From assembly GCA_025453395.1 (NCBI GenBank), contig JALOQK010000001.1:230313-272391 (forward strand): a stretch of 42,079 nt of DNA, in the 5' to 3' direction. The notes under the pieces are model-generated. The model had not been told where the DNA came from. It made no database searches and saw only the letters and a program-made list of their open reading frames with translations. Below are positions 1 to 42,079 of the stretch, in pieces (position 1 is the first letter of the stretch; every line of letters starts with the position of its first letter). This DNA is from Candidatus Omnitrophota bacterium. Lineage in GTDB: Bacteria; Omnitrophota; Gorgyraeia; Gygaellales; Profunditerraquicolaceae. A program made the translations under genes and the position numbers.

Positions 1-1085
1 CGCTTCTGCCCGGCGCATCTTAAGGAACATAAATGTGAGGCCCAGCACTTCATCGCTATTGCGCAACCTGTAATTTAGCAACAACCTCGCCAAGCCCAGA
101 GAGCGTTCAGCAGTAAACTTTTCCGGTTTCCAAAGGGGATTTAGCTCTTTAGAAATTTCATTGATTTCGCTTTGTAAATTATTTATTTCCGGTTCAACGG
201 CACTTTTAATTTCATTCCTAACTATTTTTATAGCCTTAAGCCATTTTCTGATTAAAACTATCTCGCTAACCCCATTCTCTATGCTATGGCTATTGCCTGC
301 TATTTTTTCCCAGGTTAATCCCCTTTCTTCTGCGCGAGACAATACAGCAGCCGCGCCTTCTTCGCTAGGGACATTCCTATAATTAGCTTTGAGCAACCTG
401 CCAGAAGAATAAGATTTCTCTAGAGAAAAGGAATTAAGCCTTAAAGATAATAATTCCAGCCTTAAATGGCGAATTGCCGAGGCAAGCGGCGCAGCTGCCG
501 CTGATTCGTTATTTTCATCTAATAGTTTTATAGCGGTATTTAATTTATCTCTGATAATCTCGCGGCGTTTTATTTCTCCGGGCTTAAGCTGCGTAAGTTT
601 ATCCCTTAATTCAATAAATTTTCCTTGGCAGCCAAGAACAGTTGCTTTCACAGCAGTAAGGTTTTCTTTTTCTTCATCGCTTAATTTTTCTTTCTCTTCA
701 AAATATTTTCTGATTGCTGTACATCCTAAAAGGCGCAAATACCATAATACCAGCATGTCAAGATAGACTGCCAAACGCGCCTGCCCGACTAAAATAACAT
801 CATTTCCCGCTTTTACAGCCGTTGTTTTAAATCTTTTTACATTATCGCGGAAAGCATTAAGCTGTTTTAATTTTACATCTTCCCTATAGCACCAAGCTTT
901 TAACGCCTCTACGCTAAGACTTATATTCTCTAATTGCGCTAAACGCTGGGCAACCTCCCTATCCAAGGCAATCCCGCCTAATTGCAAAACTATTTTCTTA
1001 ATCCGCGCCACGCGTTCATCCCTATCTACTCTCTTTATCCGCCCATTACCTAATTCAATACCCAAATCTGCGCAAAGCGCCTCAA
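1..1085 (-). other. Helical region continuing out of the window
   Basis: About 360 residues, helix-rich and charged ([25 protein letters not shown] and [15 protein letters not shown]), probably coiled-coil. The frame is still open at base 1 (last complete codons read L-K-M-R-R-A-E), so the stop lies outside. Confidence 0.5.
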
Positions 1086-4000
1086 ATTTTCTTCCTGATC
1101 TTTCAGCATATCTATGCAGCCAAAGGTTTAATGTGCCTTGGCTAAGCCCTATTTTCTTGGCAACGTCTTTTACGCTGATCTTTGCCGGAACAGATTCCTG
1201 CGCCGCTTTTTTAATCGCTTCCAAACGCTTTTCTTCCGGCATCGGCCTTCTGCCCGGAGAAATATATTTCTTCCCCGCTCCGCTGCCATCGGCGAAGAAT
1301 GAATTATACGGTAACCCCGGCTGCCAGCCCATATAACCGGATAAGCGCAAATATTCAAGCGGTGACACTACAAACATATCATCCGGATGATGCCGGATTA
1401 CGCCATGCCCGCGGCTATCCGGAGGCTTTACAATGCCCGGTGATTTTTTATTGGCTTTATTCAACTTATCGGTTACAGCCTGCATGATTAAACCAAATTT
1501 TGCTTTTTGATCAGAAGAAATAAAACCTGCCGCGTTTGCTGCGAATGCGCTTACAACTGTCTTAAAGCGCTCAAGGGTTTGCGCATCATAAACAGCGTTA
1601 ATTGAGCTGTTAAGTAAAATAATCATCCTGTCGTATGCGCTTTGTAAAACTTCCACATACATAGGCAGTTGCGTTTGTTTTATTTGATACTGGGATAAAT
1701 TACTCAAAATATTCTGTATTTTTTGTATTGCCCGTTCAATTTGTTCAATCTCTTGCGCTGTGTTCACCTCCTGCTTTAATGCCTTTAAACTTGTAGCGCG
1801 GCGCAACAGCTCCGAATGATCTGTCTTTTGCGCTACCGGATTCATTATTTCTAGCGCCTTTCTATATTCTACTATCAATTTATTCTTCTCATTTTTTATC
1901 CAATCCGATGTACACTTTTCAAACCATCCAAAAATATAACTCATAACCTTTTCTGCTTCCCTCATATCAACAGCATTATTGCGCACCTTACTTATCATTT
2001 CACTGGCAATGGCAATATATTTTTCATTTTGAACCCGATAAAACCTGTTGCGCAGCCAGCAGCCTTGATAGGGCTGAGGCATTTTTTCTATGAATTCTTT
2101 AAAAGTGGCGGCTACGGTTAATTCATGCAACACCATTCTCTTATTTGTCCTCTCAAGGCATTCTTGAAAATCTCTAAATTTTATCAGCGCCTCTTTGTTA
2201 AGCTTAATTATCTCCCGCAGGATCTGATTTCCGGCAACCCGCATATTCAACTCATCAAGTACTTTTACAAATTTATCCGGGCCTATACGATAGTCTTTAA
2301 TAAGCCCAAGCAGTATATTTTTAAGAGCAAATTCAGAAAGATAGCCGGCTTGGCCGCTGCCCTGCCCCCCGGAATTCTCCCATTTTATCGGCCCGTCTGC
2401 GCCAACACCTTGATGGGGCTGGCCAGAGCTCACCCGGGCAAAAGCGAATTGAGGCGAGTTTTTTTTGAAGAAATAAATAATTCCCGCGAGGATAAGATAC
2501 GTTACAATTTGCTGACAACTTCCGCCAAAGGCGGGCCCGCCTGCGGCGGGGAAACCACAGGTAACCACATCCTGCCAACCAACAGGCGGGGCATGGAAAA
2601 ACAGAGCTGAACAAATCTGCTGTAATATAATTAATGTGCCGATTATACCAAGTTTACGGGGACGCCCAGTCTTGCCTTTTACAATTCCAAATGCCTCAAT
2701 ATCCTGCGGACAGTTTTTAAAATAAATCCAGAGCGAATGCTTACTTTTCCCCAAAATCTTAGCGGTTTGATTTCTATCTTTTCCTTTAATTTTTTTTGAA
2801 AATTTCTCCAGAAGCTGCCTGATTCCTTTTATGCTCTCCTTAGGCATAAAAGGAATATCCGCCGCAGATTGAACTGCTGTTTCCCGAATGCCAGATGCCA
2901 ACTGCTGCGCCAATTCTTCGTTTTCCGCGCAAGGCCAGCCATTAACAAGGCCGCTAAGTTCGTGAAAAATAGTTACAAGTTGTAAACAAAGAGGTAAGGA
3001 GGCATCCACGAAAATCTGCCCGGGCAGATTAAATCCGGTAAGCCTGCTTCTAATCTTTTGCTTAATTTTGTCAAATGTGCTTTTGTGCAGGAGTATTATG
3101 CGTATATCTACCATTTTCTGCTCCAAATCAACCCTGCGCGCCCTAATCAAACATGAAAAAACTTTTTTCCGGTAACCCTCACCCACCTCACGCACGTTGG
3201 CAAGCGCGGCGTGGTTTCTGTTAAGCCATTTCAGAAAACATCTCTGCTGCGCAGAAGTCAGCGGCTGGCCGTCTTCAGTGCGGGCTAAATCAGGCGGATT
3301 AGAAGGCTTATCGGTTTTCTTTGGCTTATTCTGATTTTTAGGCTTATTTTTATTCGCCGGCTTGCGGCTAAAAAGACAGCATACTGCTAAAACAAACATG
3401 CCCAAAAGCCACCCATCAGTCATAATATCCTGATTCAACTTCCAATTGAATCCGGCAAGCAGGATACCGGCAGGGGCATCTAACTTATTAAAAATAACTG
3501 ATAAAGTTGTCATAAAGGCAATAGAAAATAACAGTTTTAGCGGATGCTGGAACCAAGAGATAAATTTCAGGCCCTGGTGATAATCTTTATTTAATTCTAC
3601 GGGGGAATTTTGTATTGCCTGAAGGTAAACGGAGAGTTTCCGGGGATGCTTTAAATAATAAATGTAACTAGCAAAACAGGCCTTGAAATGCGAGCCGGTA
3701 ACAAGCTCATTTAATTCATGCCTGAAGAATTCTTCCAATGCTTCTTCCGGCACAGCGGTAGCAGCCCAAGCAACCTGAATTACATTTCCGACAACTTCGC
3801 CTAAATAGGTGCGGTTTTCAGTTAGAAATCTTGAACAGATTGTCCGGCTTAAGAATTCAAAACTAAAATTTTCTACTGACGGGCTATGCTCAAAAGCAGC
3901 AAGGTAACTTCTATATTTGGCAAGAAAATATTCCACGCGATTAACAACCTGTCTTTTCTTATACGGAAATACGCCTTGCAATACTTTTTCTTTATTCCAA

Positions 4001-7000
4001 AGAAAAGTTGCGTTTTTCCCGCTTGTATTCACCCCTACCTTAATATTGTCGGAAGCAGGCAGCGGCTCAACCGGCAAGGTTCCAGGAAAAGTATGCGGGG
4101 CTTCCAGCCTAGATAACGCATCAGAGTGCGCAATAATAGCGCTAATTTCTGGATTATTGCCCCAAGCAAACCGCACAAACCCGCCGTGCCAGAAGAAACG
4201 CTTCTCAGGATTAATCCCAACCTTATGCAAAAGATCTTCCAGATATCGCCTTTTTATCTTGTTTAACCCTCTAAGATAAGGTTTTTTGTGCTCAGACACC
4301 ACTTTCAGTAACAGATCATCAATGCGGTCATTGGAAAAATGCACTCCGGATGCGGCAAGAATTAAAAGTAAATAATACGGCTTTAGTTTTTCAAATACCG
4401 TATTTTGCATTAAAATCCGGCAGTGGTAAGAATTGTTAAAATGAGCTAAGATCTCCTCTGCTGTCATTCTTTGAAAATCAGCACGATGCGAATTTATATA
4501 GTCGGTAAGAATAAACCCAAGGTTAGACGCGGCATCCCCCTTTACGCCGTCTACGCGCAGCATCTTCATTATAATATGCACCAGCTGGCTCTGAACAAAA
4601 GATAAAATATCCTCAATACTATACGGATGCGGCGCACCTTGGCCGAGTTTATCTTTCCAGCGCCTGCCTTCAAAAACCCTGCGCGCCTGCGACAAAGAAA
4701 TGAACCGGTAAAGCGCTCTGCGCGCAGCTACCATATCCTCAAGCTCAAAATAAATTTCCGCGATAAACTGAAGATTAATTAAAGAAAAATACCCGCCTTC
4801 AAATAAAGAATCCTCGTAATTACTAACTGCCTGCCGCTTTAACTGCATTGCCTCTTGCGTATTGCCCGAAACCCCTAAGATAAGCGCTTTACTAAATTGT
4901 AACTCCGCAAGCCGCGCAAAAACCTGCTGCACTTGGCCCGAGGGGTCATAAATTACATCGCGGTAATTGGGATATTCTTTTTTGTATTCTGCCGCCGCGC
5001 TTTCCGCGCTCTTTAATTTTACGTTTATATCACTTAATTCTTTGGACCAGTCTATATCGTAAGCAGCCAACGCCCAATTAAGCCAAAAGCGAACATAAAT
5101 ATTGGTATCCCTGCAGTCCATAAGTTTCTTTTTAAGAAAAGGCTCTGCCGCGGAGTGCCTAATACGGCCTAAACCCTTGATTGCCTCTGCCCGTGCCCCG
5201 AAATATGGGTCATCATTAGCTGCCAGCCCTAACATTCTAATAATTTTTTCTTTCTTCTCCTCCGGATGCCCTGCCTGGCCTAAATTATATATTGCTGCCA
5301 TACGTTCAACGCGGTAGCGCGCTTCCTCTGCCGGATCCCGTATCCCCTTAAACATTTCTTGCTTGCATTCTTCCATTATTTTCTCTGAAATCTCATAAGC
5401 GTAAACCCAATTAAATACCGCAAAGCGAAGCGCCGGTAAATACCGCATTTTTCGGCGCTGCATATTGTCTATAAGGCCGGAAAGAATCTGGTCATACTTT
5501 TTGGCTTGGTCAAACTTCAGTTTTGCTTGTATTTCCTTAAGGCAGGTAGCATCCAAACATTTTGCTCTTCCACCAGTTAAGGAACAAAAAAGAAAATCAA
5601 TCTGCTCTATCAAGCCTTCCATTTTCCGCTCAAAATCTTTATTGGTTTTGAAAACAAGCCCCGCAAAACTGCTTATCTTTCCGGAATCTATAAGCTCTTT
5701 ATGCTCTTTAAGAAGGGAAACGATATTGGCGTAAACGCGGCCGGTAATCCCGCTTGAGATATGCTCATATGAAGTATAACGGTAGCGGCCCTCTAAAAAT
5801 AAACTTTGCAGTTCTACGCGGCCTAAATAACTTAAACCGATTTGCGCGGTTGAAGAAGGAACAAAAAATACCCCTGCCTTTTTAATAAGGCATCTTTTGG
5901 CCTTGGGTGTCGCCACATTATGCGCTGCCTCAACAACAATTTTTCCTTTAAACTTTTGAGCGTAATCAAGGTTAAAACTATGCGGGGATCCGGTTAAAAA
6001 CAACACATCAGCTCCGGATAGAGCAGATTTATCATTTTCTGATGAGGCGCAATAAATTAACTGCGGATACTCCTTGAGTATTTCTCTTTTGACTTCCGCC
6101 ATTGGCGCATAGCTATGGCAACGCCTGATACTATCGTCTAAAGCATAAAACAGGCCGTTAGGCAAAGCGCCGTCCTGAACATACATTTCACCCTGATGCG
6201 ACATATCTTTTGTGCTGTCCCTGCCGACAATCCCTGTAATATCCAACCGGGTTGCGTTTTCGCCAATTTCACGCGGCATTATCGCGTAATCTTGCATCGC
6301 CCGCCAAAGCGCCGAGGCATATTCGTTATTGTAACCAAAAATCGCCAAACGCATATTGCCTTTTTCAGCCACATGGCCCAGGTATTTTTTTCTGATATAA
6401 TCGTCGTGGATTAATGCCCAAAACGCGGCAAAAGGAGCAATTCCCTCAACCCTATGCTCGCCGAAATCCGGGTTAATCCCCGCGCACGGCGGAAGCTCTA
6501 ACGGCCGCTTAATAGCTTTTGCGGTATGCAAGGCGTATTTGTTAACAACCTCCATATCCTGACGGCTTATGCGCACGCCCGGAGTTACCACATAGCAAAA
6601 CCCGAGAATCCCGGCAGTAACTAAAGACGCCCCCCATGCCTCTAACACCTGCCTGCGCTTTGAATACTTCTTCATGCTCAGCCGGCAATATGCCCCGCGC
6701 CAAGGGCTGACCCCGTTTCGGGAATTATCAATGCTTTCTGACATTAAAGGCACAAAACTTAAAATCTGGCTTTCTTCATTTTGGCTTTTGCCAAAATAAA
6801 TATCCACTGATCCCTGAGAAATAGTTAACTGCGGATTAGCAAAATTAATATGATACGCTAATAATCCTTTAAAAACCCCTGAAGAAGTGCGCTTATTTGA
6901 TTCATAAGTAAATGCCAAACGCCAAGATGTATCATGCGGCTTCCAATCCAGCGGCAAATACCGCACAAAGGCATCCGGCTTAAGGACAACGGTCAAAGCA

Positions 7001-10000
7001 ACGCCCATGCGCCGACGATAATCCATATTAGTAGTTTCTATTGCCTTTAATAAATCGCTAACCAATTCTTGGCGAGAAATGCCCTCATTATTTACCGCAA
7101 GCAGATCAGCCAGCGCGGACACAGCTTCAATTTCATCTTTACTGCGGCAATTCTTTGTCTTTTTAAATGAAGCATACCCGTTATAAGCCAAATAGCGCAA
7201 AAAGCCGTTAATTGCCGCGTGCGGCAAAATAATGGCCAAATACCATAATATAAAATTGTGAATTTTAAGGAAAAATAATATATCCGAGAATATAAAAGTA
7301 AAAAGAGAAATAAAATTCTTCTCTATAGAGAAAGCTTTGGAAAATGAATGTTTCCAGTAAATATTCTCGTTGCCAAACATATGCCCGATATGCCAGAGAA
7401 TTTGCGCAACAATAAAAACATAAAAACCGTTGTAAGAAGCAAAAGAAAAACTTGAAATTAACCCTGTGGCGGCCAGCAACTTGCCGATAACCCAGGCAAT
7501 GACAATAGGTATTGATTCTACTGCTACCGGGCCCCAGACAGTGCTGTCGCCGTACAGCCACGACATCCAAGGCCATCTTCCGCCAGATGCCTGTAATGCC
7601 GCACGTTTCTTTTCTATGTGCTGGACAATGTCACGGGCATTTCTAAGGACTTGGTCCAAGGGCACCTTATTATTAAGTAATTTCACCCCGCCTTCTTTAA
7701 GCATATAACCGTTGTTGCCTTCACGCAGAAAAACTAAACTAACCGGCTGACTCTTTTTAGTAACTAAATGTTTGGGCCCTTTATCTATAATAATTGTTAT
7801 CCGTCGCGGCAGCTGCTTAAGTTCCCCACCTCTTTTTAAATGCGATTTTTCAATGCAACGGATTATTTCATAGGCTTTATCTATATATTGTGTTGATCTG
7901 GGCTTAATCTGATCGGCATAAATTATCAAATGCTCTGGCATACCGCTGTTCCAGCCGAATTTTTCAGGATAATTAACCAGCGCGCGCATAGCGTTAATGC
8001 TTTTATTCGCGACAGCTGAAATACTGTGTTCCCCGAATTCCGCGGCAAGCATAGTTTTCTCTGCGTTAGAGAAAGCTAAAATATCAATTACATAAGCCCG
8101 CGGTTTATGGCGGTCAAATTCAAAACACTGATGCGCGACTTTAGGCGCGTAAAAAGGCACGGCTACAGCTTTAATTAACTGTTCATCTCTTAATATGGGA
8201 TCAAGAAACCAGATATCCGGCTCTTTTTTATGTATGGCCCTATTCATAAAATTGATAACCCGGCCAGCCCCTACTCCTGATTTGAGAAAACCGATAAGGT
8301 TGCCGGGATTAAGATTGCTAAATGCCTTTTCCAGCATAGGAATACGCACAGGGATAGGATCATCTTGGCAAGAAACAAAATACAGCAGATGCTCTGAAGA
8401 TAGCCCTAATTTTTTAAGCTGCGCGTCAACTAAAAGATGCGTTGAGTCAGTGTCAAAACGAAAAAGAAAATAATCATTCTTTACTTCGCCATCAACAATA
8501 TGAATGAATAAGAGTTGACCGTGAGAATCAAGTGCCGGTATAAACACGCCTTCTACGCCGTTAAGCGCCACTAAATAATGATGATTGTCCTGCAAATTAA
8601 AAAATTCAAAAAGCGGGCTTTGCCAATAGGGGACATGAAATGAGGCAGGCCGCAAGTGAGAGCGCAATTTATCTAAACGGAATTTTTTCTTATAGACAAT
8701 CCCCTCATCCGGGCACAGGCCGCCTTTATTCTCAGGACCGTTTCCTTCTATCTTATTGATGGACAAAGAATTCTGTTGGAACTGTCCCCATTCTTGCCCT
8801 GCCAACGCCAAGGCAGGGGCGAATTTAGGCGAGTATTTTTTGAGCAAATAAATAATCCCGGCAATGATAGAATACATAACAATTTGCTGATAGCTGACAG
8901 CTGACAGCTGACAGCTGAATCTGCAGGTAACCATATCCTGCCGTGGCGGTGAATCAGTAAATAGCGCGGATAAGACTTGCGCCAAAACAAGCACCGCGCC
9001 GATAATTCCCGGTAAAATAGAACCCAGCCTGCCCGGCAGGCAGGCATCCCCTTTATTTGCTAAGACCTCTACGGCATTAAACGTCTTCTTCTCTACCTTA
9101 ATATAAACCTTGTTAATCTGAAGCTTGTCGCGCCAATCCTGAAAAGGAACCGGATAACAGTAATACCGGCATTCTTCATCCTCGCCGCAGGGCTGGCCCT
9201 TGTTAAGCGTAAGCCATATAAGCTGTTCGCGCTGTATCAGGTTAATATTCCTTAACAATGGATTACCCAACATGGCAATAAAGCCTTTTTCCTTGCTACC
9301 TACGCGCACATCTATCGGCTGGCGGTCATTCTCGTTCCAAATAAACGGGCCGGCTTCAAACAGATGGCATTGTTCTATGGATAAAATATTTTGCCCTTTA
9401 CGGACAACTACCCCGGGGCCAAAAACAGGATAAGCGCTTGTAATATTACCTTTTTCATCCGTAACCATCTCCATGCGTATCCAATCTTTTCCTTTTTCAG
9501 ACCAAACATAACTAACAAACACATTCTTCGCCCACCAATCCAATTTGCTGCCATCAGGCAGGTCGCGTATAGAACCAAAACGGGAAAGGCTGCGTAATGC
9601 CTCGCTTAATAAAACAAGCACTTCTTGCCTGCTAAAATCTTGCGGGAAAAATGTGGTGTAGCCTCTGGATAAAATGCCATCGCGAGGTTCGTTCAAAATA
9701 TGGCGCGCAAGAATATGCGCTAAAGCAGCAGAAGAACACTTTTTATGATAAGGGATACTGCGCCCGCTTAGACGGATAAAACATTCCAGCCACCCCCGGA
9801 AATAATCGGGGTATCCATCTTTTGCAGTTTCTAACTCCCGCAGCTTATCTTTGACAAAATAGACAGCTTTTTCTTCGCCTTCCAAAATATACAGTTTTAG
9901 CGCCTGCGCCATTAAAACTTTAGTTTTGTAGATATAGCCGGGATGGCCTGTTGAACCTGCCTTGATTATTACTTCTGCCGCCTTTAAAGCTTCTTCTAAC

Positions 10001-13000
10001 TGCCCCAAAGCAAAGCGTTTATCAAAAATTCTGGACCACACAAAAGACAGCTGCTGCATCGTAACATCCAAAGCTATTGATGCTTCTTCACGTGTCAGGA
10101 TATAGCCTGCGGGATACAGCCCAAGAACTTCATTTATAGCTTTATCCGCATGATTTTCCGCCTTCATCATATCCCCTATAACTAAATATGCATGAGCTAT
10201 CTGTTGCAAAACATAGATATGGCATAAATCCTTGGGCAGTTTTTTATATCTGCGTTCCAGCCTTAACAGATTATTCAAGCGGATTAAGGGGTCTGGATTA
10301 CTTGTCGCATCACTTATTTCTTTCTTGGACACCAAGCCAGGTTGTCCGTTAGGGGGAACTTTTCTCTTCTCATTCTTTATTCTAAAGAACAAATTGTGTT
10401 TTTTTATTTTTTTTACCGCTCTCTTATGCTTGAGTATGGGCTTCACCAAAAAATCCAGGCTAACATTATTAACCTGCACAGCCTGCTGACAGACACCAAC
10501 AAAAGCTAACCTGAATGGATTAAAATAGTAAAGATAATATAGGATTATTAATAATATGCCTATATGTATCGCTGTAATTAATGCGATAGGAACAGGAGTT
10601 ATACCTATGCCTAAATAAGCAGCGCATAAAATAACAAATGCCAGCAGCAGGCCGCCTTCATTACCACTGTTAAGCCGCGCGCCCACCCAATACCCAAGCG
10701 GTATGTCGCTACTTGTGGCCTTGCGCCATCCATATTCCTGAAGCATGTTGCGCGTTGTTTCTTTATCCTGCATTTCTGCGTGATAAAAAATCTGCGGCGC
10801 GCCCGGGATGCGATAAGCCCTTTCTATTGAAATTGCGACATCGTTATCCCTACAGCAAAGAATATACTCACAATCAATGTCTGTTTCTTCATCATGCCGC
10901 GCCCAAAATTCAAATTCCCTTGCGCTTTGGTGATGCTCTTCTTCAATAAACCCAAGCAAATAATACAGGCTCAATATTTTATAATCTATTTTTGATACTA
11001 CTTCTTCATTCCAATCAGCAAATTTAGTTACCCGGATTACAAAACGGTTAAGAAATGCTATTAAGTCTTCACCTTCAGCCCGGGCATAACTTTGCGCGCA
11101 GCAATTAAGTACAACCTGTCCTTGAAGAGCGCAATAAACCGGACGGCTATCTTGATCCGGGCACATGCCTTGGCTTAAAGATTTTTCTTCTTTAGCCCTA
11201 AACGCCGACGGACGGTAAATAATAGGGTATTTGAGGCAAGCAAACCGCGATTTTAAATTAAACCAGAATCTCACCACAGAAACAAACAGGCGCGGCTTCT
11301 GCATTTCTTGCAGGTATTGATAATGAATGGAAACAAGATCTTGTATCTCTGCGCAACGCTCTTTATCTACCCAGAAAAATGCCGGCGTATTGAATAAATA
11401 TTCTTCAGCTTTTTTCTTTAATAACGCCGCATCTTTAATCTTGCCTGCCAACACATACTTATATAGTATCCATAACGCGATATTATTATCAACCATGGCT
11501 TCATTTTTACCGCTTGAGCGCCAAGCCAGCGCTTCTACCCATAAAGGAATGCCTGCGCCATCGCAATCGGTAAGAGAAACTCCCTTCGCAGTCAAGCCGG
11601 CATAATTTAACCGGGGAGATTCGGCTAACCCGTATAAATCCAGCTTAAACCGGGAGTCCATATTATTGAAACAAGCAATATCATTCTTTATAAATGGCTG
11701 ATTATGAAAACTCCTTATTTCATGGTCAGGGCAAAGGTTAAAAATAATCTGGCGGGCAAGGCCCGGGCAGGCAGGATAAAACTTAGTTAAAATACGCAAG
11801 AAACCGGGATTCATTTTAATTACCGCGTTCAAGCGCTTGTTACCTTTCATATCCAGATAAGGCCGGGCCTCTATTCTAAGCGTATCGCGTTCCTTCATAT
11901 TTTCAGAACTGATTTCCATTCTCTCCAGCTCAATTTTAAGCTTACTGGCTGCTTGGGAAAGCGAATTAAAAATCATTAGCGCTATACAGCGTTCAGCAGC
12001 TGTCAGTTTACGATGAGAATAAATAGGAAGAGAAACTCGCCAAGCGCTAAACTTTTTATGCAGGGATATTTTTATTGCGCTAAACTCCTCTTGCAGCTTT
12101 TGTTTCAATTTATCCACAAAAATCTTCTTAACGACTTTTCTAAAGTCTTTAACAATTGAGTTGCAAAAAACAGTTATAGCCAGAAAAACATTTCCACCAG
12201 AAAATCCGCAAGTAACTATTTCCGGCGGATGTGCCATAAAATAAGAATACAGCGCAAACGCTAAACTGCCCGCGAAAATAACAAAAGGCAGAATATCGTC
12301 TAATTCCACCCGATCTTTTCCAAAGCGCGGAATTAACATGCCGAATAATTCTACTATTTTACCGTTTCCTTTTTCAAGGTAGTCCAATGTCTCTATCCAC
12401 TGCGTAAAATCTGAATTTTGCAAAGCAATTACCTTTAATAGCGAAAGCAGCTTATCTTCTATTTCTTTAGCGCGAAATCCGCTTTCTCTTTTTTTCCAAT
12501 CACAGCTGGCACTCTCCTGAAGATCCCAGGCATAAATCCTCAGAGGATTTACTTTAGAAGATTTAAGCGCGATATAAGCTGTCAAATATAAACGGACAAT
12601 TAAGAATACTTCTTCCTTGTTAAAGCCCTTTAACATAAGCTCTTCATAGGATCGAACATTAAAATACTCTAGAATCTTGCAAAAAGCATTTAACTTAATT
12701 AATATATTTTTATCTTGCGCATCCATAACAACCGGGTCTAATATTTTACCCGGAGAAGCAACCGGATTTTCTTCAGGGCCATTTTGAACCTTCATAGAGA
12801 AATCAGGCGCCTGAACTACAGTAGTTTCTTTAGCAGAGATTACTGCCATAATATTTCTTGCCTGGGCGCGGAAAGATTTCCGATGGCTCAAACATTTTAA
12901 AGACTTAAGCCACTGAGTTTTGTTTGTATCATCGGAAAAATAGGCTTGGACATCTACCGGCTGATGATCAACCCCCTGCTGGTCAATATGCGTGCCCATT

Positions 13001-28000: not shown

Positions 28001-31000
28001 CCTGTCCCGCCGGTGTTGTCTGATCCGCCGTTGTCGACAGACACATTCTTTGGAGTATTCGCCATTTCTTTATAAGTATTGATAAGTCCAGTCGTGGAAG
28101 AATCATGCCCGCTTACATCGGCTGTTGATTCAAGCTGAGGCAGAATGTTGTTTGCAAGCTTTTTGCCAAGTTGGACACCCTCTTGGTCAAAACTATAGAT
28201 GTTCCAGATGACACCCTGAACGAAGATCTTGTGTTCATACATCGCGACTAACATGCCTAGTGTCCTCGGGGTGAGTTTCTTGGCCAGAATAGAATTAGTC
28301 GGACGATTACCTTCAAAAACCTTAAAAGGCGTAATCCTGGCGATTTCTTCATCGCTCAATTCCGGCTGACTGTTCGCTCTTCTCTTCTCATTCTCTTTCC
28401 TTAAATCCTGAACAACTTCCTGTGCGCTCTTGCCTTGCAGAAGGGCTTCTGGCTGCGCAAAGAAATTCGAAAGCAAGATCTTGTGATGTTCATCCAAAGC
28501 CGCTTTCAGTTCCGCATCGTTATCAAGCTGCTGAGAACTCCTTTGAGCAAAAGCAAGAAAATCTGCGGGGACAAGTTTTGTTCCCTGATGCATTAATTGA
28601 TAGAAAGCATGCTGTCCGTTCGTGCCCGGCTCTCCCCAGACGATCGGGCCTGTCTCATATTTCACGAGTTTACCGTTACGGTCGACAGATTTGCCGTCAG
28701 ATTCCATGTCGCCCTGCTGAAAGTATGCGGCAAAACGATGCAGGTGCTGATCGTAAGGCAAGATGGCGTGTGTCTGAGTTTTGAAGAAATTGTTGTACCA
28801 AATCCCCACTAACGCCAGGACAACAGGGATATTTTTATCAAAGGGCGTATTCCTGAAATGTTGATCCATCTCATAGGCTCCACACAGCAACTCTTTGAAA
28901 TTGTCAAAACCGATATAGCAGGCGATGGAAAGCCCTATGGCCGACCAAGAGGAGTAGCGGCCACCCACCCAATCCCAAAATTCAAACATATTAGCCGTAT
29001 CAATTCCGAATTTTTCGACTTCCTTCTTCGCTGTGGACACCGCCACAAAATGCTTTTTAATGTACTCCTGATTCTTGGCCGCTTTTAAGAACCACTTACG
29101 AGCCGTATCGGCATTCTTCATGGTTTCCTGTGTGGTAAAAGTCTTGGAAGCAATGATGAACAGCGTAGTCTCTGGATTAAGGCCGACGATCGTTTCGGCA
29201 ATATGCGTTCCATCAACATTAGAGACAAAATGAACTCTTAAATTTTTGCGCGCGGCATAGCGCTTGAGAGCCTCAACAATCATCACAGGACCGAGGTCTG
29301 AACCGCCGATGCCAATATTGACGATATCGGTAATGATCTTGCCGGTGTAACCCGTCCACAGGCCACTAATAACCTTATCTACGAAAATATTCATCTGCGC
29401 TAGGACGCGATTCACTTCCGGCATGATATCTTTTTTATTCACATAAATAGGCGCATTGGATCGATTCCTTAGCGCAATGTGGAGAACGGCGCGCTTCTCT
29501 GTTTCGTTAATCACGGCGCCCGTAAACATCGCCTCGATCGCATCCTCAAGCCCAGCCTCTCTAGCCAAATCAATGAGCGTATCCATCACCTTTGAATCAA
29601 TCCTGTTCTTTGAATAATCCACTAACAGTTCGCCAATACGGATGGAATACTTGTCAAAACGCTTCGGATCCGCCTCAAACATATCACGCATATGCTGCTT
29701 CTTCATAAATTCAGAGAGTACTTCAAGTTTTTTCCAAGCCGCGGTCTGGGTTGGGTTGATTTTTGGCATGGTAATTTCATCTGTCCCGCCGTTGTCGAGA
29801 CTGCTTACTACATAATTTTTAAGAGATAATCTCTGAAGCTGGGCCTTGCAGGAAGGACAAAACTGCGCATTTGTTTTATCAAGCTCAGCTGCGGTTTGGC
29901 TCAAGCGCATCACGCAGGCAGGATTTTCGCAGTGTAGACGGGAAGTGCCGGGGTCAGTAAATAACTTGCCGATTAAATGGCCTGTTTCATGAATAATATT
30001 TTTAACGATACGTTGTATAAATATATTGTTATTATAATGCTGAAATCTAAACCCTGATAAGATACCCTTGTTTTTACCCAGTAGAACGCGTCCAAAGAGA
30101 CAATTCCATACTGTTCCTTTTTGTGTTATGCCGGTTATGTCTGCATCGGTCAGATATAAAGTGGGGATATTTTCTTTTGTCCCTTCAAAAAGATACGGGA
30201 GAATGTATTGCTGGCGGACTGCATCAAAATATCCGCCTACATTGCTTACCACTTGATCAATTTGAATTGGGGGAAGAACTTCTATGTTAATCTCAAAAGG
30301 AAATGCCTGCTGGATCCCGGGGATGACATATTGCCGGATTAAACTTAACAACTCCTCTGCCTTGCCGGGAATTGAAACAGCGGGAATAATTCTTAAAACC
30401 GGAGGGCCGCGAGAATGCCTCGTATTCAATAACGCGCTATTTGGCGCAAAATCATCAACTGCCCGGTTTTTACCCGTTTGCCCAATAATATTCAAACTAT
30501 AGCCACCATTATCAAGCGGGGCTTTTAAACTCTGTAAAAATCCGGGAAGATATTCTTGATAGCAAACATTGGGCTCCAGAGAACAGGCTATATTTTTTAT
30601 GCTGCCATTTACATTAAGAGCGTCTAAATCTATTATTTTTCCGCTAAATTTTCCTTCGGCATTCGTATTCATTACGATATTAGAAGGCTTGAAATCGCCT
30701 ATATAAAATTTCTCAGGAGAAAAATTCAACAGGCCTTTACATATCTCTAAACCAACAAGTATAGCGCGGCCTTTTTCTTTTGAAGTTATTTTTTCTTCAT
30801 CCAAGATTTTATTTAAATCTAACCCTTCCACAAACTCTCTAAAAACAACATTGATATCATTTCTAATCAAACGGGATGGGTCAATATAATGCCAAGGCTC
30901 AAAAGAATGCGTAATCGCTATATCTGCCATACGCGGCCGATAGTCCTTTATCCATACTGAATTGCCTAATTTGCATACATAGGGGCAATTAGCCTCTGAC

Positions 31001-34000
31001 AACTCTTTCCATAATTCTATAGATTTTTCAATTCTTCTCTTATCAAAACCTGCGCCAATAGGGTCATGCCTTATTGTGGATAAAGCTACGCCGAATTTTC
31101 TGCCTCCAGTTAAACTGACAGTAACTCTATAAATATTCTTATTCTGTCCACTGCCAAACCAACGCAGGTAAACATTGGATAAATCTTTCACCGATAACTC
31201 AATATTAAATAAAGTTTCAAGCGCTTTGAGGATAAATTCCGGATCTTCCAAGAGAGTTCTTCTGAGCTGATGTAAATCTTCTGTTATATCGCACCGCGAA
31301 GCAAAATCAGCCAGGTTTTCCAACTGCTTGGCAGAAAACTTATCAATTTTTACCAATCGCTCTAAACAGCCTACTACCAACCTCCTAATTACCCAACTCT
31401 TGCAATAAATTAAATCTGAAACCCGCTGGATATCTTCTGCATTAGCATCTTTGGGATTCTTATTAATTCTGGAAATTAGACTTAAAGACGCTATTTGATT
31501 ATCTGTTTTTTCTACATAGCGCAATAAATCACTTGCAACCTGCAGGCCTAAGCGTTCCTGCAGAATTTTATATAAATCCGGGAATTGCCGCGGGATTCCG
31601 GCACCAGTTAGAATAATTGCTATCGCCAGCCTTGAGAGGCCCATTTCTTTTCTTTCATGCATTACTTTCGCTACTGTGCAATCGTTATTTAAATAAATCT
31701 TTATCTTTGCCTCATCCCAACCCAACTCTCCCCTAGTCTGATCCGAACCATTGCCTAAAAGCTTGTCCTGCATCGCGCCGTTAATTTCAATGTTTATAGC
31801 CATATCTTTTTTTGAGAAATAAATTGCTACTTTATCGCTTAAACGCTTATCGCCATTTTCAATTTCACCTGCAAAAATGACTTTATATTCCTCGCCGTTT
31901 AATTGTGTAACTATTGAGCGCGCAAAATAATTGACAAAGCCTTCGTTTCCACTAAGAGAATTTCTTTTAATGCCTTTTTCTCCATCATGAGCAGCACAAA
32001 ATTCTTCTATGCTTGGCGCATTATCAATAATACCCTTAAACGATACAGAAGGCATAACGAATGAAATAAAATCCTCTTTTTCATTTAGTTGTAAAGAAAT
32101 TGTATTCGAATTAATTATTTGGCGGTTATCGTTTACGCCTTTATTTAGCCAAATCCATGTTTCTCCTTTATTAGAAGAAAATTTGTAAGTAAAACGGCCA
32201 GAGAAAAATTCGGGCAATTCTCCTTCAAAACGGTATTTCCCATCGCCAAAGTCATTTACTATGCGCATCGGGATTTCAAACCATGTCTTTGGATTATCCT
32301 CTTGGTTGCACCATAAACGCAAAAGGATTTGTTTATCTGGATTCGTTATTTCCTTATTTAACTTTACAGTGAGGTAAGCTCGGAGGTCTCTCTTATTTTC
32401 ATATACTGTAGTTTGCTCTTCCGGATAGTAATCGCCTTGCCACTGAACGCGTATAGTTTCCCCTGCAGACTCAACGAAACCGCCGTTATCTAAACTATCT
32501 TTGGGAAAATTAGAAGCAGTGGATTGCATACATTTTGCTACTTCCTGTTTAAAGTATTTTATAATTGTTACCCGCGTCCCAATCTTTTCTCCCTTGTTAT
32601 CATCAATATTCTCAAAAATGATTTCATCACTATTCTTCCCCGCATAATATATGCCAAGCAACTCGCCGCTTCCAGTTGTCGTATTGAAATCACCTTCGTC
32701 AAAACGCTCGCCATAGCGCCTTTTTAGCCATTGCACTTCTTTATCAATTAAATTTAAACTATGCTGTGGGTTAAAGATTGTTGCGCCTTGATCGGTAATG
32801 CTGATTTTCATCCTTTCATCATTCACAGACCACTGAATCGTTACTTTCTTGTTCTTATCAAATTTATTACCGTGTTCCATCGCATTTTTGAATAATTCAT
32901 GGAAAGCCCAACTTAAACAATTGACTGTGATTTGTTTGTTAAACCAGAGGAAGAATGAGCCGACTAATTCCTCATTGCTGGAAAGTTCAATAACCCCTTC
33001 TTTCTCCAGCTTTAAATCTTTAAAATCTTTTTCAGAAGTTATGGCGATTAATTGATTATCTTTAGGGCCTGCGTCAAAGGAGCCGCCGTTGTCGAGAGAA
33101 ACTATTTCTCTTAAAGCTCCGAAATCTGCCTCGGGGCTCATGCCAGATTCAAAAACATCCCTGGCATCAGTTGGCGCTTCTCGCGGCTGCAGAAATACTT
33201 TCCCCAGTGTATCTCTGCCACGGGTATAAACTTGGGTATTTTGATCATGTAAATAGTTGCACACTAAGGTATCTACTGGGATGCGTCCGTTGCGCTGTTC
33301 ATCTTTGATTTCAAAAACAAATAAAACGATGCCTCTACCAGAAGACGAAGACGCCTCCAAATTCCATTTCTCCTCTATACAATAACCCGAAGAAAGAATC
33401 TTTTTCATCTCCCGAGATAAAGCTTCTGATGCGCTAGGACTAATTTCCATTAAAACTACAAGTTCGGTCCAATTTTCTTCTTCCGCAACCCCCTGCCCCC
33501 AGCCTTCATAGGGATTATAAATTAAAACCGAGCGTCGGCGATCCTTTTGAAAAGCTAAAAATAAATCGTGCAACAAAATTGCCTGCTCTTTAAATCTTGG
33601 CCTTTTCCGATGCTCTTTGACTCCCCGCGGAAGATGCGTATGCGCCCTCCTGACCATCTTAACGAATGTCTGGGCAATATCCGGCCTTTCCTGGCTAAGC
33701 TCAGCTATTTCTGGGAAGGCGCTCATGCCAATATCCCAGCTATCGCACTGTCTGATAAGCGCATCCAGGTCTTCGCATGTCAAGGCATTTAAGGTATTGC
33801 TTAAGGCACGGCTGGGGGCAACAAATAATCCGTTACACATCCTGCTTATAAATTGATCTTCCATGCCTAATGCTCTGCCTCTTGAAAGAAGCGAACTAAG
33901 CTCTCCTGCCCTTCTAAATATCTGCTGGTTCCAAATATAGTGGCGCAGGCTCCCGGAATGAGCCCGAGAGGAATCTAATGGGCCGATAAGGCAATACTTC

Positions 34001-37000
34001 AAGAAATCCTGCTCATCGACATTATCAATATCTACATTTTCCTGCTGCAGGCCTCTTGCTAATTCGGCGTTTGCGGTATGCTCGGGAATGCCCCACTTGT
34101 TTAGAATCTCCCGGCGGGAAGCCTTTCTTCTTAGAAATATATACTGCATATCACCCCTGAGATAATCAAATATGAACAATAACCTTAAACCGGTGAGAGT
34201 GTTAGCTAAACCATGCCCCCCCTCAATAATAAGGCGGCAGAAGCTCCAGGGATTGGCATCATCAATATATTTAAATAACTCTTCAAGATAATCAAGAAAA
34301 CCCAGGATAATCCGGTCCTGGTCGGTAAGCTGACTTTCCCTGGCTTGACTTAAGGCCTGGTGGAATTTATCGAACTGGATATCTCTTAGGGCCGCAACAG
34401 CCTGATTAAGGGGTTGGTTAAGTAGCTCAATGTTTGGCACTATCTCGGAAAGCATGATTTTGATGTTTATACCGAAACGGCGCATAATACCCTGCAGTCC
34501 AACAGACATACTCGCCCATTGGGTATGGGCTGTTTCTATGTCCTTGAACATCGTTTTTAAGGTTGAATCAGGCATATAGGATTCTTGATTACGGAACTCG
34601 AGGCAGAACTTATCCAGTCTGCCCTGCCAAAGAAGCTTGATTAACCCCCGGGATTCTGGACTGATGCCTGCCGGCTCAATGGATACTATCAGCGCATCCA
34701 AATAAGTAGCCAGGGCCTCACCCCATCTCCTTTCGGTTTCACGGGATTCAGCGCTTATCTTTTCTCCGGATAGAATCTCAAAGTCTTCAGCAAACTTTGA
34801 TAAGACTGTCCTTCTTATCGTATCATTTAAACCACCCTGTTCTCCGCCAAGAAGGGTAAATGTCGAAAGCGTCCCTCCGTTGGTTTCATTTCTGTCATGA
34901 TTAAAAAAATTAAATATGGTCATAAGCAAAGTAGACCTTCTGTTGAATTCATATATCCCGCTATAGATCATATCCAATAAAATCTCGGCTTGCTCCTTCT
35001 TAGACATCTTGGTTGTATTTACCATATGGAAAAGCCCGGGATATTTTAAAACACAATCCCAGGTCCTTTTCATTTCTTTTTGGTCGCGCGACACAACATC
35101 TCCCAAGGAATCTTTGGGTTTATGATTATTCATACGGCCAGCATATCTGTTCGCTCTTTCCTCGGGGGTAGCCACAAGAAATATATACAACAAAGAATCA
35201 GGGATAAAAGTTCTATTAGCCAGAATAATCGGCTTATTCAAAATCTTTATTTGCGCAAGAATCCTCTCGAATGTGGGCTTCAGTATTGTCTCCCGAAAAA
35301 CGGAATTATTAGCTATCAGCGAGCTTACCTTATCCACACCCACGCTTTCAAAATCTTCCCTGGTCATCTCTCTGCCATCAAGACTAAGAACCACTCTTCT
35401 ATTCCGAATCGTATGGATAATATTAATCTTGGTTACCATAGAGTTTAATCCGGGCGTATTGAGAATTGCTGGATCATCCGAAACGGAATTTAAGCGCACC
35501 AGGCCCAAATCAAGCGCCTTCCAGCCATAACATCTATAGAAATGCCCGACATCAAAATATATGGCATCAAAACCATCTGCTGCTGCCTCGGCAACAGTAG
35601 ATTTTCCTACGCTGTTTACGCCGGTAAGATTAATTACCGGAGGATCGATTGATAACGCGAAAATACCTGTATATATATAATAAAATTTAACTCCGGGCTG
35701 CATTACATAATATCTCCAGCTTTCTTCAAGAAAATCGTTTATCCGCTGATCAGCCTCTGCATCGGGAAGACCAGAAATACCGGCCAAAGAATTCTCAACC
35801 TCAATCAAGTGTTGGCATAATCTAGAACCACCCTGCAACAACTGATTGATTTCTTCTTGCGCCCTGGCTGAATCCGGCTTCTTAAGAAAATCCCTCCTGT
35901 TTGGGACATCTATCTGCTTGGCGATCCAGGCATCTTCGCTTTTTTCTTCTATTGGTGATAGTATTATATTGGTATGGTTTAAATCGTGTAGCAGGATACG
36001 CGAAAGCAGCGTTAACACCGCACGCGGATATTGCTTCCTGCGACTGATAAAATACCCGATTATTTCCCGATCAAAAACAAGGTAAACTTCACCGGTCAGA
36101 CTAATAAACTTACAGCATACTGCCGGCAAAGGAGCAGAAGATACCTCTATTCTAATCGGCACCGCATCATCAGGAAGGTTATCTTTTACTAATGTGCTAC
36201 TCAATTTGAGTAAATGGAATAAAAGTACTGCCGGAATATCAACTTCCTCATCCATAATAAAGCGCCCCTGCTTGAAGATTATCCCTTGATACTCTGGTAA
36301 AAAGCATTCTTCTTTAATGTGCTCACAGTAAGATTCAGGGCTCATAATCGAATCAAAATAAGTAAACATTGCCTCCGGGCTCATCGCGGATTCAAAATCC
36401 TGATTTTTTAAAACAATTATTTTACTGCTTTGATAAAATGCCTCAATAGAGCCCGGTTTCCACCAGCCCTTTAATTCTGGCTGAGCTATCAGTTCCGGCC
36501 TATGAAAAGGCACAACTCCAGGATGTAAATGCGCCCCTTCTCCAGCCCCGAAACCGATAATACTGCCGTCTAATCCACCGCGAACTTGAACCAATCTGGC
36601 TCCGCGAAATCTTTCTCCTAATCTATTAACCACTCTTCTTATAGCGATATCCTGAAGATGCGTCCTATTAGTTTCTTGAACGCTATATCTTAATCCGCTT
36701 CTAACATTGGTAGGAGAATCATCATATACATCCCTGGCGGTACTTAACAGCCATTCAAATTGATCGGGATTTCTTAAAAAATAGTAATAATAAGCATCTT
36801 CATAATGCGCAATCGCTTCTTCCCTGGAAGTTATCCTGCTGCCCACCAAATACCTGATCTCCCAGCCGCCCTTACCGCACCATTCATCTAATGTTTCACC
36901 GATTGCCTGACGCCGGCTGCCAGAGTAACCCGGACGGTAAAAGCCGCGGGCGCGGATTTGTGCAAAGAACTCCTCCCGGCTTATCTGAAGGATAGGTTTA

Positions 37001-40000
37001 TGAAAAGGAATATCTTTGGCTCTATCTGCTTCCGGGCTCATCGCGGATTCGAAATTCTCTTCATGGCCCATATCGGTAGAAAAAGAATCGGGTAAAATTC
37101 CGGAAAGTTCCTGATTGCACAATAATGCCGGCTGAAGATAATCCACCAAGATTCTTCCTGAGGGATCACTCAATTCTCCGCGAACTATAGCTGTCTGTAT
37201 CTCCAGAAAGAATTCTCTAGCCGAAGCCAAATGCAACCGGATAACCTCTCTTCTTGAAGCCGTATCCACAGCGTTAACTAGATCTTTCATAAAAACAAAA
37301 TCTATTCGTCTGACCGCATCCACGTATTTTTTCAAAAGCGCTCTTGTTTCCACATCCTGCTGATTCCTCTGTAAAACATAGAGATACTTTACCAGCTTGC
37401 GGCACTGCTTTTCCCATTTGGTAAATACCCCCTCTATTGTTGCTACCAGCGGATCCTGAAATCTGGTTTGATAACTTACAAAGTCTATATCCAGCGGCGC
37501 ATCACAAACAAGACCTGCTTTTTGCGCCAGAACAATATAAGGAGAGCCTTTCTGAAGCCGAAGACTCCCGAAGAGCCGAGCATTAGTCTCAAAAAGCCTG
37601 GTTTTTTCAATAAAGACCAAACTCTGTTTTAATTCTTCCACAGTAACCAAGGGATCAAAAAAGATGAATCCCGGCTCCGGCGTAATACCTAGCTGGACAA
37701 ACCTTTCCAGGGCCTGAGCGTTTTGTTCAACTGTCGCGCCCTTACCGTATCGGCGTAGTTGCGATGGGCTACCGGATTCAATACCCAAGAAAACTCTTTT
37801 TAATCCGGCTTCTCTCAAAAGACTGTATACCTGTAGCATCCTCGTTAACCTCTCCGGATGCGCAGGCTGAGATATAGAATCCACTCTTGCCGAAAAATGA
37901 GTAATCTGAATTTTATTATCACCTGTTAGCCCCAATTCCTCGTTCATCTTGATTATCCCCTGGGCTAAGGCTGCGGCCCTGTCCATCGTGGCTTTAAAAT
38001 CCGCTTCGCTACTGGTCGGCCCCATAAATTCCGAATCCACAAAATGGAATTTACGTACGCCTTTCTGCGTAAACACGCGCATCCTCTTTAACAGCTCTGA
38101 TACGGGTAACGGCCTCCAATTAGGGCAACCGGTAAGCGCTCGTATAGAACAGAAGGTACAAGACGCATGAGGACAGCCGCGACTAGCTTCAATGGCAATA
38201 TTGGGCTCTTCCGGTATAGTAAATAATTCCGGGGCCTCGTTTTCATCGGGAAGGGCATAATGACTTAAGTCCATAACTACGCGTTCGGTAGTCACTACCC
38301 GCTCGCCTATTCTTAATTTAATATTCGGCACGGCGGCATAAAGCCTACGGTCCTTTGACTTGGCGTTCCTGGACATAGTTATAACAATCTCTTGTAAAGG
38401 CAGCTCTCCTTCCCCTAAAATGAATACCGTTTCCTGATACAGCTTTCTCTGTATTAACTCATCGGGGGCAAAAGTAGCAACCACATTACCTAGGGTTACT
38501 AGCGGAGCGTCTTCCTTCATTTCGGTTTTAATCCGCAGCATAATCTTCTCTACGATATTTAATGTACCCCATTTCATGGTCAAGCCGGCGATATCCGGAC
38601 GCTCTTCTATAATCCTGGCAGTAACCATGTCTGTAGCCATACGGAATCTTTCCGGTAACGAGATCTGCCTTTTCTGGGCAATCATCTCCTGCTCTATCTG
38701 ATCAAGATATTTCTGCATATCAATAACCACTACTTGGCAATCTGTATATTTGCGTAAGTGCCCGGCTAAAGTAGCTACTGCAATGGCCCCTTGTCTTTCT
38801 GCGGCATACTCCAGAGCAACCAAATTAACCAATACCACCTTTACCTTATTTTTCCAGGCCGCTGCCTTAACAACGCTTAATTGCTTAATCTTTTCCACGG
38901 TAACGCCGTCTGTATTAACCTCTTCAGGTATATGGCCCGCTTGTCCAGGCTTACGGCCGATACCCATATAAACCCCTCTAAACGGATAATCTTCATTGTC
39001 GCTGCCAGCAGTAACTATTACTTCTCTTGCGCCTCTTAACAACCTGACATCTTCAGCTAATCTAACAGTGGCATCCATATAATCTTGGCTATGATCACTA
39101 TGGTACGCTTCAATAGTATCAATATAGGCGCCGTACCGAGTAAGAAGATCACGGGCTTTCTGCATCTTCATTGCTAGTCTCTTAGCCTGCCCCTCGGATG
39201 TATGCCTTTCTATGTTTGCCGACAAAACAGGATTTAGCGCCAGGTACCGGGAGTGCGCAATACCTAACACTCCGGCATGTGCGTTTACAAACCTACCGAC
39301 TTCCTGTATAGAAAAACCGTAGTGTCCATTGTTGGCGCTAAACATTTCTACGTTTGCCGGAATGTCGCTAAATTTACGCGGCACTACCTTATCTAATTCC
39401 TGGCGGATAAGATTTAAATCCAGGCCGTACTTGCGGTGAAGCGCGGTTATTACTGTTTGACGGGATAACATATTGGTCCTTATGCCTAATAAATCCTGCT
39501 CTTCAAGCTGTAGCCACTCTCTCTCCAGCGCAAAGTTACCCTGATAACCGGTCAACCTCTGAATCAAATAATCCACGCGGTTATTAGCCCAAAGAATTCG
39601 CTTCTGCAGCTGAAAGCTCATCTCTTCACAACGAACATCTCTTAACCACCTCATAAACGCAGGAGCATCTTCCCTGCCAGATATAGCCGAACCAATAGGA
39701 AAGTAAACCAAGAAGTGGTCGTCTTCTGTTTTATAAACTTCGTCGTAAACATCAAGCTCGATTCCGGGGATAACTTCAAATTCGCCTGCCAGTCCGGATT
39801 TGTATATCTGATCCCATGCCTGAACCATCTCCTCCATATGGTCTAAAGTAAAATGGTCCGTAATTGTAATTGCCCGCATCCCGCTAAACCAAGCGGCAAA
39901 AACTACTCCCGTTGCAGACCTTAAGCCATCCGAATAGAAAGAGTGGTGGTGTAAATCAATGCGTCTTGCGAGGCTGTTATCTTTGGCCAAGATGCCGGAT

Positions 40001-42079: not shown

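Follow-up and report, generated by a model that had tools for sequence, protein, structure and literature searches.

What kind of gene can fill 42 kb of bacterial DNA without starting or ending in it, and where in the cell would the product of such a gene do its work? The window, which is the whole stretch of DNA analysed, comprises the final 42,079 bases of the 272,391-base contig C1 (G000:C1:230313-272391) in an Omnitrophota genome of 1.62 Mb and 14 contigs. A preliminary description took it for the interior of one open reading frame of more than 14,000 codons with neither start nor stop, whose opening by chance would be practically nil, and machine translation of the minus strand, at an offset of 1 from the last base, bears out each of these points. 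The minus frame shows no stop in 14,026 codons and leaves the window at both edges, and the other five frames contain 503, 647, 896, 985 and 1,285 stops, with a longest open run of 209 codons. Given the base composition, 6.5% of the codons should be stops, which gives a ln P of about -1318 for the absence of stops in the 19,582 codons that are open on contig C1. Extension into the flanks, also proposed in that description, found one end of the gene and missed the other: the frame continues 16.7 kb to the left of the window down to a TAA at C1:213642-213644, and the 5′ end is cut off by the end of the contig. The C1 part thus amounts to 58.7 kb of open frame, well above the 20 kb of uninterrupted frame used to recognise the giant ORFs of Omnitrophota.

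This frame behaves as coding sequence along its length. According to a codon-usage model trained on 15 ordinary genes of the same genome, it ranks first of the six frames in every 300-codon window, 65 in the C1 part and 58 in the C7 part (the probable 5′ portion of the gene, discussed below), as well as in 123 of 130 and 115 of 117 windows, respectively, when 150 codons are used. Genes hidden inside the giant frame were considered and rejected, since Shine-Dalgarno-like sites followed by ATG are not enriched (C1, 4 vs 7 and 5; C7, 0 vs 7 and 4). Ribozymes and introns were searched for in the window with Rfam, which gave no match at gathering scores.

The mixture of central-metabolism enzymes and membrane segments that had been noticed in the translation was also recovered, with PHP, radical-SAM, archaemetzincin, phosphoglucose isomerase (PGI), EamA and other known domains matched in frame. 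The features of the window, with residues counted along the C1 part, are the following:

1..42078, minus strand: interior of the giant ORF, codons 1-14,026 of the 19,582-codon C1 part
42079: left-over base of the codon split by the contig end, from the reading of the frame
39562..39957, minus strand: PHP domain, aa 708-839, DLHHHS present
37594..38631, minus strand: B12-type / radical SAM domain, aa 1150-1495, cysteines C-x4-C-x2-C
36397..37074, minus strand: unnamed block, aa 1669-1894, 51% identical to a block in the G074 giant frame
34966..35628, minus strand: cytidylate-kinase-like domain, aa 2151-2371, GVNSVGKST present, below the NCBIfam cmk cut-off
32563..32913, minus strand: histidine-kinase-like ATPase (HATPase) domain, aa 3056-3172
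29830..30234, minus strand: archaemetzincin (M54) metalloprotease domain, aa 3949-4083, HETGH and C-x4-C-x-M, PDB 3zvs at 8e-11
28063..29763, minus strand: complete phosphoglucose isomerase module at aa 4106-4672, alignable over its whole length with PGIs of known structure
27049..27957, minus strand: EamA-type transporter region, aa 4708-5010, 7 hydropathy-predicted membrane segments
23260..25443, minus strand: PTS enzyme I / PEP-utilising-enzyme-like block, aa 5546-6273, found in the G054 and G073 giants at 28%
20107..21339, minus strand: partial alpha-glucan (glycogen) phosphorylase-like segment, aa 6914-7324
15355..17811, minus strand: internal duplication, aa 8090-8460 and 8492-8908, about 25-31% alike
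2596..22929, minus strand: 14 further hydropathy-predicted membrane segments, scattered from aa 6384 to 13161
1093..1236, minus strand: HTH_23 homeodomain-like helix-turn-helix, aa 13615-13662

We take DLHHHS to be the motif of the PHP domain, GVNSVGKST to be P-loop-like and HETGH to be the HExxH enzyme motif of the archaemetzincin domain, whereas the cysteine spacing of the radical SAM domain presumably departs from the usual C-x3-C-x2-C. Methyltransferase, HAD and GNAT domains are also matched in the C1 part (Pfam and NCBIfam, the latter run on this part alone), and the Pfam matches of the C7 part include C39, ATP-grasp, DUF7790, CofD, HHH and HAD, the last three near the cut-offs, together with weak TPR and glycosyltransferase matches. 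The pieces submitted to Pfam were overlapping for C1 and non-overlapping for C7, where domains lying at the borders could be missed. Hydropathy predicts 21 membrane segments in the window, 39 in the whole C1 part and 31 in the C7 part (signal-like stretch included), about 70 in total, so the many membrane segments typical of Omnitrophota giant ORFs are present as judged by hydropathy. No condensation, adenylation, ketosynthase or carrier domain of NRPS/PKS type appears among the Pfam matches of C1 and C7, and neither does any glycoside hydrolase, polysaccharide lyase or adhesin domain. Long homologous repeat arrays of the RTX or Ig-like adhesin kind were not found either, with just a few short internal duplications being detected.

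The clearest of these modules is the PGI, which is matched in the window at 8.1e-229 and reaches 828.8 bits against the NCBIfam model PRK00179 (curated cut-off, 492). The likeness to the bacterial-type enzyme is full length, and the motifs that we take to be those of its active site are present. It differs from that enzyme in being embedded in a giant chain and in grouping with three other embedded copies. Similar modules with sharp edges recur at 69-75% identity in the giant frames of G005, G002 (partial) and G074 (two copies). In a tree of the 45 most similar of 79 free PGIs plus five rows from large frames, the four full-length giant-embedded PGIs form one clade with 100/100 support, and the fifth row, a PGI taken from a G005 frame of 1,762 codons, branches outside this clade with a long branch, so that the large-frame label of the five rows needs two changes on the tree. 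The module is under purifying selection, with a dN of 0.15-0.18 against a dS of 1.8-2.3 that is near saturation. As a minor observation, degenerate PGI-like fragments (25-28%) lie near intact modules at G002:C110 aa 397-689 and G074:C35 aa 10865-11130, as if PGI modules could duplicate and decay without breaking the frame.

The missing 5′ part of the gene is very probably the 17,608-codon frame that runs off the left end of contig C7, by far the longest outward frame among the 28 contig ends of the genome; an outward frame of more than 541 codons exists only there and at the right end of C11. The C7 head and the C1 tail would then be parts of a single gene, 37,190 codons or more in length (probably at least 111 kb), plus an unsequenced gap. 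This join is proposed because Tad genes precede the C7 head, and a PilZ gene and a solute-binding protein gene follow the C1 tail, just as they flank single frames in related genomes, and because no contig end besides the left end of C7 is open to a comparable extent. None of the other contig-end pieces contains the final 21 bases of C1, and the join rests on synteny rather than on a read or an overlap. The passage of the cysteine content over the join is smooth (0.9 to 0.95% per 2,000 residues), which fits the assignment. The frames at the right ends of C11 and C2 (1,360 and 1,270 codons; loci L149 and L150), which also run off their contigs, are 47-64% alike and internally repetitive, and they are probably the two ends of one tandem-repeat protein; as partners of the right end of C1 they were rejected, since they pair with each other. 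The 51 residues that close the C7 frame (C7:1-153) are a repeat (49-68%) of a segment lying earlier in the chain, which may be why the assembly broke at this point.

On C7, the giant chain begins with a constant header, assigned to the gene of the window by synteny. It consists of a signal-peptide-like stretch ending in LPEQVAQA followed by a C39-like domain. Pfam Peptidase_C39 matches the header in three giants (6e-8, 7e-13 and 2e-9), and a PDB search retrieves 6mpz, the C39 domain of a PCAT transporter, at 2.5e-5, both kinds of match spanning only the His/Asp part (Pfam positions 46-130 of 133). In the alignment of 29 headers, which leaves out the split matches of G044 and G074, the Cys, the His and an Ala at the presumed cleavage site are present in all 29 and the Asp in 24, with the His inside the C39-matched stretch. 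The invariant Cys sits before that stretch, outside the region matched by the Pfam and PDB profiles, and is taken as the catalytic residue on our own assignment, made from the anatomy of C39 peptidases. In the header of the window genome a Ser replaces the Asp, so its peptidase may be weak or dead. The domain is therefore best called C39-like, short of a proven peptidase. Compared with Peptidase C39, the double-glycine leader peptidase of PCAT/ABC transporters, the His/Asp part of the header aligns, but it follows a signal-peptide-like stretch and opens a giant chain instead of an ABC transporter, its conserved Cys lies outside the match, and the Asp is absent in the window genome.

Within the order, 66 of 128 genomes are matched by a profile built from three headers (A1); in a phylum sample the figure is 123 of 237, many of these matches being weak and partial. 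A score of at least 120 bits, taken here as a strong header, is reached in 55 of those 123. In two of the 55 (G246 and G261) there are stops inside the matched header stretch. All seven header frames checked (1,146 to 12,627 codons) run to the end of their contig, and header frames that look short may therefore be cut. In viral contigs, 62 stretches match the header pattern, none of them encoding a relative. Proteins above 20,000 aa rarely carry a predicted signal peptide according to the consulted parts of PMC11573180, a rarity that these headers seem to contradict. In other classes of the phylum sample, weaker partial matches, limited to the C39 part, occur in frames of roughly 1,000-5,000 codons and suggest a wider family of C39-containing large proteins.

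Upstream of the head, C7 encodes RcpC, a secretin, a fused ParA/T2SSE ATPase, two T2SSF proteins and a TadG-like protein, and downstream of the tail C1 encodes PilZ, the solute-binding protein and two permease-like genes that are kept in relatives. Both flanks enclose a single open frame free of N in G054 (35,009 codons) and G073 (30,185 codons), and a 42,913-codon frame with one 100-N gap in G029. In G194, TadB/TadC lie just upstream of a 39,687-codon frame of which one third is N, the PilZ-like gene being adjacent downstream and the binding protein 4.4 kb away. In G050 the same flanks enclose 157 kb with two frames (14,792 and 37,731 codons) that switch exactly at a 100-N scaffold gap. PilZ and the binding protein directly follow the tail at eight loci of seven genomes (G000, G012, G029, G050 twice, G054, G069 and G073); the exceptions are G196, G219 and G264, where the binding gene is on the contig of the header, not near it, and G235, where it lies 4 kb from the end of the frame with no PilZ match. 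On a side note, G050 seems to carry two giants (G050:C3 and G050:C8), each with its own PilZ-like and solute-binding genes, the latter 68-69% identical to that of the window genome.

At least one Tad gene precedes the header on the same strand at 17 of the 17 testable loci (19 were inspected, G252 and G005 offering only 0.5 and 2.4 kb of upstream sequence). RcpC is present in 52 of the 55 strong-header genomes vs 59 of the other 182 (Fisher 1.5e-17, uncorrected for relatedness), and 59 of the 111 genomes with RcpC have no strong header. Whenever both lie on the same contig (35 of 35 pairs), the header is found 13.1 to 24.9 kb downstream of RcpC on the same strand, a fixed place beside the Tad genes in independent genomes. 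The upstream Tad genes and the linkage between header and RcpC indicate an association of the giant with the Tad genes that extends over several families, and we infer that the Tad cluster and the giant may constitute one operon.

That proteins of such a size were already known in the phylum, as the preliminary description stated, agrees with the literature (PMC10066038, PMC13104272 and PMC12057145, in the parts consulted). Of 116 Velamenicoccia genomes, 77 are reported to have giant ORFs longer than 20 kb (PMC10066038); PMC13104272 mentions proteins above 57,000 residues and cites a preprint for their possible cutting into smaller proteins, and PMC12057145 cites sizes up to 85,800 aa. West-Roberts et al. 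2023 is cited in both PMC12057145 and PMC13104272. In the parts of PMC10066038 consulted, detection of the giant protein in cells is reported for V. archaeovorus only. The genome G194 is almost certainly that of Ca. Velamenicoccus archaeovorus LiM, on the basis of the coordinates of its Tad locus (CP019384.1 12382-29832) and the length of its giant ORF (39,678 aa) in PMC10066038: RcpC of G194 lies at 12,766 and its giant frame begins at 29,823. The Tad locus of LiM thus ends where the giant begins, an adjacency that is unstated in the examined parts of that paper.

The giant of LiM resembles the one described here in its class, its header (matched in G194 at 5.7e-46 with the 3-row profile, so that the N terminus is common to both), the Tad genes upstream, the many membrane segments reported, a similar size and a core of about 3,000 aa that is colinear with the C7 head at 26-35%. 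It differs in that the G194 frame, in its readable two thirds (one third being N), has no detectable similarity to the C1 tail, PGI included. With other published Omnitrophota giants, as far as the consulted texts go, the gene shares an open frame of tens of kb, few annotated domains, poor conservation and the frequently reported membrane helices, but the discoidin, LamG and dockerin adhesin domains reported for them are absent from the Pfam matches obtained here. Giant Omnitrophota ORFs are therefore already in print, whereas the conserved header, its place downstream of the Tad genes and the rise of cysteine from the N to the C terminus seem undescribed: no description was found in the open-access text consulted, and a search for the word cysteine within the related open-access papers retrieved no such gradient.

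In contrast with its header and flanks, most of the chain is poorly conserved. Between G054 and G073, two members of one genus, the header is 72% identical, five downstream genes 82-92% and the PilZ-like gene 56%, but just 4.8% and 5.6% of the two chains match each other (E 1e-4). Similarity to any other compared giant extends over 21.7% of the C1 tail and 28.7% of the C7 head. Among the C-terminal 500 residues of six giants there were no mutual matches that would indicate a conserved C terminus. A head core of about 3,000 residues is nonetheless colinear with G054 and G194 at 26-40% and consists, by eye, of a coiled coil followed by beta-rich sequence. The body of the giant turns over very fast, yet it carries conserved modules such as PGI. 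For the conserved core at about aa 10,500-11,800 of the C7 head (L145, L146; alignment A2), the profile matches the gingipain R2 chain 5ag8 at 2e-4 over 88 positions, possibly by chance.

Beneath this turnover, a composition gradient runs along the chains. Eight giant frames, taken from seven genomes and including the joined C7+C1, become richer in cysteine towards the C terminus (Spearman 0.55-0.86), out of 11 frames profiled; the rise is absent in the remaining three, which lack one or both ends and were left out of the eight (G074C35, 0.07; G069C17, -0.27; G005C48, 0.13). In the same eight frames Arg, Phe, Ile and Leu go up and Thr, Asn and Gly go down in every case, His goes up in seven, Trp is nearly flat or weak, and Tyr, Met and GC3 are of mixed sign. 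For the gene of the window, cysteine makes up 0.35% of the C7 part and 1.39% of the C1 part; it starts close to 0% at the N terminus and reaches about 1.5% in the tail, with no rise inside the C1 part alone (rho 0.09), and the composition of the tail resembles that of the ordinary genes of the genome. As Phe, Ile, Leu and His also rise, the gradient is more than a pure redox signature. Such a gradient would follow from export of the head but not of the tail; it would also follow from a C-terminal location of recently captured cytosolic domains, in which case it could reflect the age of the captured domains. Trp, Tyr, Met and GC3 speak against a cause in the cost of translation, for which the rises of Phe (8/8) and His (7/8) would speak.

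The reading that we prefer, and to which we give an even chance of being right, is that of an envelope-spanning giant of at least 37,190 codons, encoded distal to the Tad (Flp) pilus cluster in Velamenicoccia-type Omnitrophota and linked to it in function. The process would start with the entry of the N terminus into the Sec route. The Cys-poor, Thr/Asn/Gly-rich head would end up outside the inner membrane, and the Cys- and Arg-richer tail, bearing the enzymes, would stay in or near the cytoplasm, held by its membrane segments. During export, the C39-like domain may cut either the chain itself or a partner protein. Finally, the giant and the Tad pilus would act together in contact with other cells, for which the 3-fold rise in attached cells reported for V. 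archaeovorus (PMC10066038, in the part consulted) can be counted, and the fast divergence of the body might be the result of arms-race selection on the part facing those cells. A broader proposal, improbable in its entirety, is that all header-bearing giants represent one orthologous gene, distal in the Tad cluster. Its exported C39-like header would be constant, whereas its body, which can exceed 57,000 codons, would be exchanged nearly completely from one congener to the next. With a cysteine-poor extracellular head and a cytosolic enzyme tail the chain would span the envelope, and one polypeptide would physically link the contact with prey or partner to the metabolism of the predator itself. 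In any case, the constant header, the fixed gene position and the gradient turn the question of function into testable ones (does the head lie outside and the tail inside, is the header able to cut, is Tad needed?). The adjacency to Tad is a testable clue to how giants might leave the cell, and the header is a simple probe for finding giant genes in fragmented genomes.

A rather doubtful alternative, though one with arguments of its own, is that the whole chain is translated and then cut, by its C39-like and archaemetzincin domains or by other proteases, the modules working as free enzymes. The full-length, well conserved and sharp-edged PGI module would suit such a polyprotein, as would the two protease-like domains in the same chain, and post-translational processing was proposed in an earlier study according to PMC13104272, in the part consulted. 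However, the genome already has a separate PGI gene of 491 aa, and a composition gradient over the whole chain is unlike what a bag of unrelated enzymes would show.

It is quite unlikely that the entire chain is exported and anchored in the membrane as a coat that binds or degrades the surface of the prey, the captured cytosolic enzymes being re-used or decaying. A coat and the use of prey polysaccharides have been proposed for V. archaeovorus (PMC10066038, consulted in part), and the signal-peptide-like start with its Ala in 29 of 29 headers, the alpha-glucan-phosphorylase-like segment and the degenerate PGI copies in the G002 and G074 giants are in line with it. Nevertheless, enzymes using ATP, SAM or PEP would presumably be without substrates outside the cell, the tail is composed like the ordinary genes of the genome, and the Pfam matches include none of the glycoside hydrolase, polysaccharide lyase or adhesin domains named above.

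Accretion by drift, in which the frame would grow by gene capture without ever being translated to its end, leaving a functionless body, appears very improbable: the scant conservation of the body even within a genus would be its natural outcome, but the 19,582 codons of the C1 frame remain free of stops despite 8,331 single-base changes that would create one, codon usage is of coding type throughout, PGI is under purifying selection, and giant frames occur in many independent assemblies. As for an artefact of assembly or sequencing that fused separate genes, the draft state of the assembly (14 contigs, the gene broken at contig ends) and the N gaps crossed by the frames of G010, G029, G069 and the G050:C3 locus hardly make it credible against N-free frames of 38,661, 35,009, 30,185 and 27,888 codons in independent genomes and a single-contig genome with a frame of 39,687 codons.

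Two minor observations concern other sequences. A 1,415-codon frame at G006:C45:2068-3942 matches the C1 tail at about aa 18,365-18,980 with 55% identity. The sequence SBBM01000005.1 (L065; 21,369 bases), deposited under the name 'Planctomycetales bacterium', is one open frame throughout; it has the length of G005:C48 and, by the kinship of G005, belongs to the family of the window, its deposited label being probably wrong.
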